Assembly (NCBI RefSeq): GCF_003369795.1
Contig: NZ_CP026730.1
Span: 3,596,001-3,660,000, forward strand
Origin: Streptomyces sp. CB09001
GTDB lineage: Bacteria; Actinomycetota; Actinomycetes; Streptomycetales; Streptomycetaceae
Direction of reading: 5' to 3'
Length of the DNA stretch: 64,000 bases
Shown: piece after piece, positions 54,327-57,424 of the stretch
How positions within the stretch are numbered: position 1 is the stretch's first letter
Layout of the letters: each line of letters opens with the position of its first letter
Made by a program: the position numbers and the translations under genes
The notes under the pieces: model-generated
Databases searched by the model: none
Told to the model about the DNA's origin: nothing
What the model saw: the letters and a program-made list of their open reading frames with translations, nothing else

Positions 54327-54393
54327 CCGGTCATTGTCACGCATATGCGTGCACGCCCGTGCGCGGGTCCGCACATATGTGAGCTACGGCTCT

Positions 54394-54494
54394 CCTGCCC
54401 GGCCTGCCCGGCCTGCCCGGCCTGCCCGGCCTGCCCGGCCTGCCCGGCCTGCCCGGTCGCTCCCGGCCTGCCCGGCCTGCCCGGTCGCTCCCGG
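54394..54494. repeat. 9-bp minisatellite CCTGCCCGG
   Basis: Seven exact tandem copies at 54394-54456, then TCGCTCCCGG, two more exact copies at 54467-54484, and TCGCTCCCGG again. It lies between the LLM gene stop and the HAD start, outside both. On the minus strand the unit reads Gly-Gln-Ala in one frame but no gene uses it. Confidence 0.95.
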
Positions 54495-54555
54495 CTTCCA
54501 GTCGCTCCTGGCTCCGAGTCGCTCCCGGCTCCCCACCCCGCTCGATTCCGTGCCC

Positions 54556-55452: not shown

Positions 55453-55651
55453 GCCGTGACCTTAATCCCTGTGGGCGGGCGGCTCGTGGCGGTCGGCCGA
55501 GCCGACGGACGTCGCGCACGAGGTCGCGTCGTACGACCTTGACCTGTGGTGGTGACGCCGCTTCGAGGCCTGTGACCCAGGTCTCAGTGCAGTCGTGCAG
55601 CAGATGAGGCGGTGTTCACGTCGAGGAGGGGTGACAGGAAGGGAGGAGCGT

Positions 55652-56173
55652 ATGGAGACGGACTTCCAGGCTTTCGTCGCCGCGAGGTCGACCGCGCTGT
55701 TCCGGGGAGCCTTCGTCCTGACGGGCAACCGTGAGGCAGCGGAGGATCTGGTCCAGGAGACCCTGGAGCGGGCCTGCCGCAAATGGCGCACCATCGCAGG
55801 GAAGGACGCTCCGGACCTCTATGTGCGGCGGATCATGGTGAACCTGGCCAACGACCGCTGGCGCAGGTTCCGCCGTCTGGGCATGACCTCCGATCCGGAG
55901 AGCGACGACAAGGCCGCTGCGGGAGACGAGTTCGGCCAGGTGGACAACCGGGACCAGTTGGTGCGCGCCCTGCAACAACTGCCCATGCGGATGCGCACGG
56001 TCGTGGTGCTGCGGTACTTCCACGACCTCTCCGACACCGAGATCGCAGCCGACATGGGCATATCGCCCAGCACGGTGCGCTCCCAGCTGGCTCGTGGGAT
56101 CGAGAAACTCAGAAGTCAGATCCCCGTGCTCTCCGCCCCTTCGCCACGGCAGCACACGGAAGGAATCCGATGA
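55652..56173 (+). CDS. SigE-family (ECF) RNA polymerase sigma factor
   Basis: 173 residues from the ATG preceded by GGGAGGAG. Region 2 (FVAARSTALFRGAFVLTGNREAAEDLVQETLERACRKWRTI) and region 4 (LPMRMRTVVVLRYFHDLSDTEIAADMGISPSTVRSQLARGIEKLR) are clear. It belongs to the SigE-like group common in streptomycetes. Its stop overlaps the start of the next gene by four bases, which couples translation and points to that gene as its partner. Target promoters unknown. Confidence 0.92.
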   Translation: METDFQAFVAARSTALFRGAFVLTGNREAAEDLVQETLERACRKWRTIAGKDAPDLYVRRIMVNLANDRWRRFRRLGMTSDPESDDKAAAGDEFGQVDNRDQLVRALQQLPMRMRTVVVLRYFHDLSDTEIAADMGISPSTVRSQLARGIEKLRSQIPVLSAPSPRQHTEGIR

Positions 56174-56703
56174 CCTCTTACGGCGACGCACGGCCTTCCG
56201 GCTGCACACCTTTCGAAGAGGAACTGATGAACGCCATGGACCGATTCGCGAACTCCGCCAACGCCCCCGACTTCGACGCGTCCCAGATCCTGCGCCGCAC
56301 CCGGCGCAGGCGCACCATCGGCGTCGCCGCCGTTGCCGCCGCCCTCATCGCTGCGGGCGGGGGCACCGCCCTGGCCACCTCGGTAGCCGGCGGCAGCAGC
56401 TCGACCCCGGCGGCTACCAGCGCGGCCACCAACAGCGCGGCCACCAACAGCGACGCCACCAGCAGCGACGCCACCACCATGCTGTACCTCTTCTCCAACG
56501 GCCAGAGCGTCCCGATCGACTTCGCGGGCTGGAGCCAGTACGAGGCCAAGAGGTACATGCAGAAGACGCAGACGACGCTCGGCACCGTCACCGAGAAGGC
56601 CGTCAAGGGCTGCAAGCCGGGCTCGGTGCTCGGCGTGTCCCCGCACGCCCCGAAGACCGTCAAGAAGGGCGACACGGTCGACTTCACCGTATGCGCCGGC
56701 TGA
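56170..56703 (+). CDS. Single-pass membrane protein with PASTA-like outer domain, probable sigma-factor partner
   Basis: 177 residues. A cytoplasmic head of about 48 residues has no zinc-anti-sigma motif (no HxxxCxxC). One membrane helix (IGVAAVAAALIAAGGGTALA, about 50-70) follows, then a Ser/Thr/Ala linker with repeats of ATNSDATSSDAT, and a C-terminal PASTA-like domain (DFAGWSQYEAKRYMQKTQTTLGTVTEKAVKGCKPGSVLGVSPHA, GDTVDFTVCAG) with two cysteines. Translational coupling to the sigma factor suggests an anti-sigma or co-regulator that senses the cell wall. Inference. Confidence 0.8.
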   Translation: MTSYGDARPSGCTPFEEELMNAMDRFANSANAPDFDASQILRRTRRRRTIGVAAVAAALIAAGGGTALATSVAGGSSSTPAATSAATNSAATNSDATSSDATTMLYLFSNGQSVPIDFAGWSQYEAKRYMQKTQTTLGTVTEKAVKGCKPGSVLGVSPHAPKTVKKGDTVDFTVCAG

Positions 56704-56725: not shown

Positions 56726-56754
56726 GCCCGCCCCTGCGTCAATCAGGGGCGGGC
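56726..56754 (+). terminator. Hairpin after the sigma-factor operon
   Basis: 11-bp stem (GCCCGCCCCTG and complement) with a seven-base loop, 22 bp after the PASTA-like gene stop. Confidence 0.75.
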
Positions 56755-56965: not shown

Positions 56966-57424
56966 TCACCGTACGCGACTGCTCAGCCACGGGGTGAGGA
57001 GGAGCATCGACACGTGCTCCTTGTGGGCCCGGTCGCCCGGCAACGGAACGATCAGGCGGTATCCGGGCGGAAAGCGGCGCCCGTGGACGTGGGCGAGGCC
57101 GCCGAAGACGGAGCGCAGGAACGCGGGCACGTCGTCGCGTTCGACATCAGGAAACTCCACGTTCTCGACGGTGATCAGGGCATCGCCCTCGTGGAAGAGC
57201 CGGACGCTCACCCGGGGAGCACCGCCGAACTCGACGAACGCCTCGTGCGGGAGAGAGCCGTCGGTGTCGGTGGTCACTCCCACCCCGGCGGCGCTGTGGC
57301 GGGAGGTCTGGTCGGCGCCGATGTCGTCGGTGACCTCGATCTCCAGCGCGTACTCCTGGGCGACGGCGCGGAGGGCGGTGACGGCGGCCTGGGTGGTGGG
57401 CAGGTGCTCCATGCCTTCGATCAT
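56966..57424 (-). CDS. Hypothetical protein downstream of kptA
   Basis: 152 residues; ATG at 57424 six bases after the kptA stop, or ATG at 57412. No membrane helix. Acidic and soluble, with a beta-rich middle (HEAFVEFGGAPRVSVRLFHEGDALITVENVEFPDVERDDVPAFLRSVFGGL) and a C-terminus LIVPLPGDRAHKEHVSMLLLTPWLSSRVR. Co-transcription with the RNA phosphotransferase suggests a related function. Not recognised. Confidence 0.72.
   Translation of the reverse strand: MIEGMEHLPTTQAAVTALRAVAQEYALEIEVTDDIGADQTSRHSAAGVGVTTDTDGSLPHEAFVEFGGAPRVSVRLFHEGDALITVENVEFPDVERDDVPAFLRSVFGGLAHVHGRRFPPGYRLIVPLPGDRAHKEHVSMLLLTPWLSSRVR

Follow-up and report, generated by a model that had tools for sequence, protein, structure and literature searches.

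Gene pair, junction, and promoter region

The window analyzed here, a 64,000-nucleotide stretch of Streptomyces sp. CB09001 DNA, carries two codirectional, overlapping genes, the first coding for an ECF sigma factor and the second for a membrane partner made up of a short head, a single helix, and a PASTA domain (Table 1).

Table 1. Features of the sigma factor/membrane partner locus (positions in the window)
Feature	Position	Strand	Basis
Crp-type palindrome TGTGACCCAGGTCTCA, putative operator	55571..55586	+	Aligned upstream regions; Crp consensus as given in PMC10033298
Candidate -10 region: CGTGCAGCA box, conserved, 7 bases downstream of the palindrome	55594..55602	+	Aligned upstream regions
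Conserved leader with ribosome-binding site	55619..55651	+	Near-invariant nucleotides
SigE-family ECF sigma factor, 173 aa	55652..56173	+	TIGR02983 above cut-off
Membrane partner, 177 aa, putative anti-sigma factor; ATGA shared with the sigma gene	56170..56703	+	Translation, conserved overlap
Predicted cytoplasmic head, residues 1-48	56170..56313	+	Alignment A5, profile match to other SigE-family partner heads
Membrane helix, about residues 49-69, ending in the invariant A67-x-A69	56314..56376	+	Hydropathy, column counts (36/36)
Outer PASTA domain (Cys148, Cys175), residues 103-177	56476..56700	+	Pfam, model, fold matches, column counts
GC-rich, terminator-like hairpin 3' of the stop codon, lacking a T run	56726..56754	+	Sequence, RNA fold

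The first-pass annotation had described a four-base overlap of the two ORFs, and the shared ATGA confirms it. The same -4 overlap occurs in all 27 pairs extracted from loci L009-L041 (the window's own copy is counted, and L010 equals L038, leaving 26 distinct partners); the other six of these 33 loci yielded no pair, being L022 (no match), L019, L020, and L021 (broken copies from two genomes), and L032 and L039, in which the sigma start codon was not recognized during extraction and the ATGA junction is present. It further recurs in 16/16 loci L097-L112, drawn partly from the same genomes as the other loci, and in all 10 loci kept from a second lineage (see below), a count made without L187 and L188, where another SigE-family sigma/partner pair lies close to the expected one and was picked instead. 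This conservation rules out a chance overlap. Since a hairpin follows the stop codon of the partner gene and the next sizeable gene-like ORF downstream (56966-57424) is on the opposite strand, the segment looks like a two-gene operon. Elsewhere in the window, at about 54380-54500, a short-period tandem repeat lies between two minus-strand genes, with PARPARPAR and CPACPACPA runs in the overlapping ORFs.

The 34 distinct upstream regions that we aligned have in common the palindrome TGTGACCCAGGTCTCA, a 7-base spacer, the CGTGCAGCA box, and the leader, with few substitutions, and the CGTGCAGCA box is also found upstream of sister pairs and of L096. The leader (about 30 bases) is conserved beyond the needs of a ribosome-binding site; its length differs in L031 and L012. 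For Streptomyces Crp, PMC10033298 (citing Gao 2012) gives the consensus GTG(N)6GNCAC; within 200 bases upstream, 31/34 regions have such a site in relaxed form and 6/34 in strict form. The sisters, one of them from another genus, have strict GTG(N)6GNCAC sites with other center bases, and in them 4-5 more bases separate the palindrome from the GTGCAGCA box, a shift in spacing that points to an operator rather than a fixed -35 element. Its retention within the clade and its strictness in the sisters despite the different center bases argue for a real operator, which suggests that the operon is under the control of Crp, the cAMP receptor. Genome-wide, the strict bipartite promoter pattern has a single match, namely the operon itself (0 matches for the reversed control), and so delineates no nameable regulon.

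The sigma factor and the head of its partner

The assignment of the sigma factor to the SigE family, also made on first pass, is borne out by TIGR02983 (E = 1.4e-48; 164.9 bits, cut-off 141.55). Nine sigma factors of this genome pass that cut-off, and at six of them (L045-L050, the window pair being L048) the next gene codes for a single-pass protein whose short head is zinc-free, the partner having been assigned in this set by nearness to the sigma stop codon only. Another SigE-family sigma factor of the genome, L044 (G000:C1:3084167-3084634), lies upstream of a lipoprotein-like and a response-regulator-like ORF and is presumably the true sigE/cseABC locus, sigE/cseABC being a transcriptionally controlled case. 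At the level of the class, 29 loci with related sigma factors (L124-L152, taken from many more sigma matches; two with PASTA) all have a single-pass partner, with the -4 overlap in 23/29, figures that arise partly by construction because partners with a membrane helix and with a start at -4 or -1 were picked preferentially. The same biased picking was used for the second-lineage loci and the second-family partner set described below. None of the 27 class-level partners without PASTA matches a Pfam family at E 1e-3.

The 48-residue head of the window partner has one cysteine and no histidine and, as the first-pass annotation had stated, is devoid of the zinc anti-sigma motif (Hx3Cx2C), which rules out a class I zinc anti-sigma factor. 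The single-pass topology claimed there likewise stands, with one hydrophobic stretch (about residues 49-69) following an RRTRRRR run; by the positive-inside tendency, this run predicts that the head lies on the cytoplasmic side. Its invariant residues in the alignment (A5) are F15, E16, E18, L19, M23, P33, F35, D36, R45, and R46, and helices are modeled at 14-29 and 37-43 with low confidence (pLDDT about 63-66). An hhalign comparison of the clade head profile with that of the 27 non-PASTA partner heads gave a probability of 88.6 and a score of 28.0, as against at most 13.6 in 100 column shuffles and 0.13 for the heads of seven partners of this genome's other ECF sigma factors. Because the profile comparison exceeds both controls, the head is a module common to SigE-family partners that probably binds SigE-family sigma factors. 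A weaker test, a single-sequence HMM of the clade heads, did not bring this out, with 4/27 non-PASTA heads, 1/5 paralogous heads of this genome, and 1/8 non-SigE controls above the 95% shuffle level.

Matches of the head to described families are few. It hits no Pfam family, and a search against PDB sequences returned five chance-level matches, none of them an anti-sigma factor. Two further models align weakly with the partner, namely NF052375 ('anti-sigma factor'; residues 33-107, 19.9 bits with a cut-off of 100) and NF038083 (CU044_5270 family; 22.2 bits, far below its cut-off of 100), the latter recovering 26/36 clade rows and 5/27 other partners at E 1e-3. In a large survey that dropped domains of less than 50 aa as possible class II factors, the class I anti-sigma domain (ASDI) measures about 101 +/- 33 aa and comprises a bundle of three helices and an additional fourth one (PMC7406223); with 48 aa and two weakly predicted helices, the head differs from the ASDI and falls below the size limit of that survey.

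Thus, the first-pass claim of a new type of sigma switch does not extend to the core of the system, which is ordinary: non-zinc single-pass partners with a homologous head occur at six of the nine SigE-family sigma factors of this genome and at the 27 class-level loci without PASTA. The pair is real and conserved, with a common sigma/membrane chassis, and the PASTA outer domain, the putative sensor, is its sole unusual part.

Membrane helix and outer PASTA domain

The A67-x-A69 motif occurs at the C-terminal end of the helix in all 36 rows of the clade alignment (35 of them distinct). The helix is alanine-rich, and shuffling is expected to place an A-x-A in its second half in 21.6/36 rows; moreover, the motif is not enriched in other SigE-family partners (14/27 versus 11.7 expected), and the G-T-A-x-A form of the site is not kept in the sister L094. 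The one notable property of the motif is hence its fixed place, which we treat as a lead to possible signal-peptidase gating of the kind known from RsiV, a protein that signal peptidase cleaves only in the presence of lysozyme (PMC6066255).

The outer domain, labeled PASTA-like on first pass, is a genuine but divergent PASTA. It matches PF03793 over residues 117-174 with 29.9 bits (gathering score 23.2), and structure prediction, which the same annotation had named as a check, gives residues 103-177 a PASTA fold at a pLDDT of about 90. This AlphaFold model, built from 20 aligned relatives, shows a weak head helix and a disordered linker, the latter being the Ser/Thr/Ala segment between the helix and the PASTA domain. 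The best Foldseek matches are the PASTA domains of PknB, PrkC, StkP, and PBP2x (best E 1.2e-3, none below 1e-3), and in VIA-align the top 24 rows (Z 9.7 to 6.2) are all PASTA-bearing chains, the first non-PASTA chain being row 25. Pfam, the model, and the fold searches together rule out a sequence artefact. The divergence is apparent in that PF03793 matches 23/36 clade rows at E 1e-3, and in a pair of cysteines, Cys175 (36/36 rows) and Cys148 (33/36), that is absent from the canonical PASTA domains of the sisters. The pN/pS values, meaningful only as a comparison between regions given that pS is probably depressed by the high GC content, are 1.17 for PASTA, 1.21 for the linker, 0.58 for the head, and 0.52 for the helix; the head is therefore better conserved than the PASTA domain, which drifts as fast as the linker. 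A kinase domain is absent from the 177-residue protein, and the kinase model NF033483 is matched by its PASTA end alone (23 bits against 450).

The associated claim that the domain could sense muropeptides fares unevenly. Because the outer domain really is a PASTA, a cell-wall sensor is plausible; muropeptides would be no more than a possible ligand for one divergent domain that drifts like the linker, and a single PASTA domain may do without binding them. The proposed ligand residues of PknB are in the linker between two PASTA domains (PMC6428115), whereas the window partner has one PASTA domain.

Distribution and separate occurrences of PASTA partners

The partner is found in 12/150 genomes of the genus, as 10 intact copies, each adjoining a sigma gene, and two broken ones, and the 10 full-length sigma factors of 76-100% identity come from the same 10 genomes as the intact partners. 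The sigma factor is detected at E 1e-40 in 15/150, i.e., in the 10 intact pairs plus G128, G063, G019, G075, and G074. Those of G019 and G075 (56-58% identity) have a partner with a canonical PASTA domain, and that of G074 (57% identity) has one with a similar head and a different outer domain. G128 (L093, L019) and G140 (L020) carry damage in the sigma gene as well as in the partner gene, and in G063 (L092) the sigma gene has a split frame and extraction yielded no partner, all of these being possible assembly errors. The damage to both genes in the broken copies, along with the conserved overlap and promoter, supports the sigma factor and membrane protein behaving as one unit. At the level of the order, 20/372 genomes have a partner of the window kind (E 1e-20), and a scan of the collection gave at least 19 loci, comprising, among the matches listed, 16 from Streptomyces, two from Actinacidiphila, and one from an unclassified actinobacterium.

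A second set of such loci is present in another family of the class (f19), where a SigE-family sigma factor is joined by the -4 overlap to a partner with a head, a helix, a canonical PASTA domain, and an extra C-terminal domain. PF03793 is found in 15/15 partners from the sisters and this second lineage, as against 0/27 of the other class-level partners. On both sigma trees (70 and 85 sequences), the distribution of PASTA requires at least two changes, forced by starred branches, and a single origin of all PASTA partners is disfavored both on this count and by a marginal AU test (one-clade p = 0.0447), with the reservation that the sigma trees hold long branches and the bootstrap of the 85-sigma tree is not fully settled. 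Most simply, the pairing with PASTA would have arisen by two gains, one in the Streptomycetaceae and the other in another actinobacterial family.

The extra C-terminal domain of the second lineage (L181-L186, L189-L192, L201-L215) is marked by DLGDLGDG..FG.V..GYLP.GL.W and has no Pfam match at E 1e-3; PASTA is positioned between the helix and this domain in some of these partners and is absent in others. The 15 partners fetched from the second family all have the same C-terminal domain, with PASTA in seven and without it in eight. In the 85-sigma tree, seven of the eight PASTA-less partners (L201-L207) belong to another sigma clade, and L214 alone is inside the PASTA sigma clade yet without PASTA, which narrows the possibility of one chassis swapping PASTA in and out across the family. 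As PASTA occurs in two sigma clades and the C-terminal domain exists with and without it, PASTA looks like a plug-in sensor module on these sequence grounds, with L214 offering the closest before/after comparison. When the class was searched with the profile of the PASTA partners, the yield consisted mainly of PASTA domains within long frames, and of the 28 loci checked (L153-L180) two have a sigma gene within 1.5 kb.

Proposed signaling mechanism and its relation to known systems

The non-zinc single-pass partners of other actinobacterial SigE-family (TIGR02983) sigma factors, weakly NF038083/CU044_5270-like, share the sigma family, topology, homologous head, and frequent -4 overlap with the window pair and differ from it in lacking PASTA. 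RsiV, which pairs with SigV in B. subtilis, is a single-pass anti-sigma factor responding to a cell-wall threat, whose signal-peptidase site adjoins the membrane segment (PMC6066255); the likeness of the window partner would consist in the invariant A-x-A after its helix, a candidate cleavage site, whereas RsiV is a DUF4179 protein from another phylum and the window partner, with its PASTA, has no DUF4179 among its Pfam matches up to E 1. In the PknB-RseA-SigE system of M. tuberculosis a lipid II-interacting PASTA reports to an ECF sigma factor, and a loss of the contact between PknB and lipid II is hypothesized to result in phosphorylation of RseA and release of SigE (PMC10027907). There, PASTA belongs to a kinase whose phosphorylation target is a separate anti-sigma factor, whereas in the window it is on the putative anti-sigma factor itself, with no kinase domain; M. 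tuberculosis SigE and the window sigma factor have only the name in common. The ECF43 systems with Hanks kinases (EcfP/PknT, EcfK/PknS) similarly encode a membrane sensor of varied outer domains with an ECF sigma factor (PMC13147305), but that sigma factor is activated by phosphorylation. Finally, in CnrY/CnrH (class II) a short two-helix cytoplasmic segment of CnrY embraces the sigma factor (PMC4598750); the window head is in a similar size class (less than 50 residues) but has no detectable sequence relation to it, and CnrY receives its signal from a separate CnrX, whereas the outer domain is fused in the window partner. A search of titles and abstract openings, mostly of papers outside subscription, found no PASTA-bearing anti-sigma factor.

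We propose, as the more probable reading, that the partner acts as a non-zinc anti-sigma factor with a short head, and that its outer domain signals the state of the cell wall with no kinase in between. The two genes of the operon would then code for an ECF sigma factor and for an anti-sigma factor embedded in the membrane, with the ATGA overlap keeping their synthesis matched. Sequence and computation support the operon, the overlap, the SigE family, the PASTA fold, the conserved head, and the modularity of the outer domain; sigma binding, inhibition, a ligand, and proteolysis of the partner are inferred. The 48-residue head, with an amphipathic helix, a PxFD turn, and a second short helix, would hold the sigma factor at the membrane, away from RNA polymerase, and a single helix would join it to the outer PASTA domain, whose contact would be the cell wall itself, a wall protein, or wall precursors such as lipid II and uncrosslinked stem peptides. 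A change in that contact would cause the partner to be cleaved or rearranged, freeing the sigma factor; in the most specific route, the invariant A-x-A would be a gated signal-peptidase site 1, with intramembrane proteolysis to follow, as in RsiV. A bolder version, which we offer tentatively and hold to be less likely than not, is that PASTA, fused to a minimal non-zinc anti-sigma head of less than 50 aa, links cell-wall precursors to the sigma factor independently of any kinase: the ligand state would gate signal peptidase at A-L-A and thereby free the SigE-family sigma factor. In this version the arrangement evolved twice, PASTA having been added to a widespread actinobacterial chassis of sigma partners, and the Streptomyces operon additionally reads the cAMP/developmental state via the Crp-type operator.

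Other readings place the switch elsewhere. The partner might still be an anti-sigma factor with PASTA as a passive anchor or localizer (at the septum, the tip, or a protein contact), the switching being left to redox of the PASTA cysteines, a third protein, or cytoplasmic proteolysis. This would agree with a PASTA domain that evolves as fast as the linker and with the retention of Cys175 and Cys148 across the clade, and localization has been proposed as a major role of the PknB PASTA domains (PMC3145798). We nevertheless consider it rather unlikely, since PASTA on such partners in two separate sigma clades fits an input module, and the sisters' canonical PASTA domains lack the cysteine pair on which a redox switch would depend. 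The upstream palindrome bears on another reading, namely that the partner is a positive co-factor or tether, or merely tunes a sigma factor mainly under transcriptional control through the Crp-type site: the relaxed site is nearly general in the clade, the strict one is found in a minority of it and in the sisters, and L044 supplies, in this very genome, a SigE-family sigma factor with the gene order of sigE/cseABC. Against this, the head is conserved across partners with differing outer parts, and the membrane partners encoded beside ECF sigma factors are commonly anti-sigma factors, as is established and set out in PMC8103513 and PMC7406223, which makes this reading improbable.

The invariant A-x-A at the C-terminal end of the hydrophobic stretch is also what would be expected of a signal peptide cut constitutively at A-L-A, in which case the product would be a secreted or shed PASTA protein and its co-transcription with the sigma gene incidental. 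Such a signal peptide hardly accounts for a 48-residue head better conserved than the PASTA domain and common to partners without a fixed A-x-A, and we regard this reading as very improbable. The anti-sigma reading with an outer wall sensor is the one we retain.

PASTA domains are a textbook link between the state of peptidoglycan and Ser/Thr kinases. The sigma/PASTA-partner pair is likely a cell-envelope sensor without a kinase, putative as this assignment is on genomic grounds; if true, PASTA on the partner of a sigma factor would give these domains a second, kinase-free output and would serve antibiotic producers as a compact reporter of the state of their wall. The existence of related partners with PASTA, without PASTA, and with other outer domains makes the contribution of PASTA to signaling addressable by a sigma-reporter assay, and the head, short and common to these partners, would represent an anti-sigma module matched by no Pfam model here.
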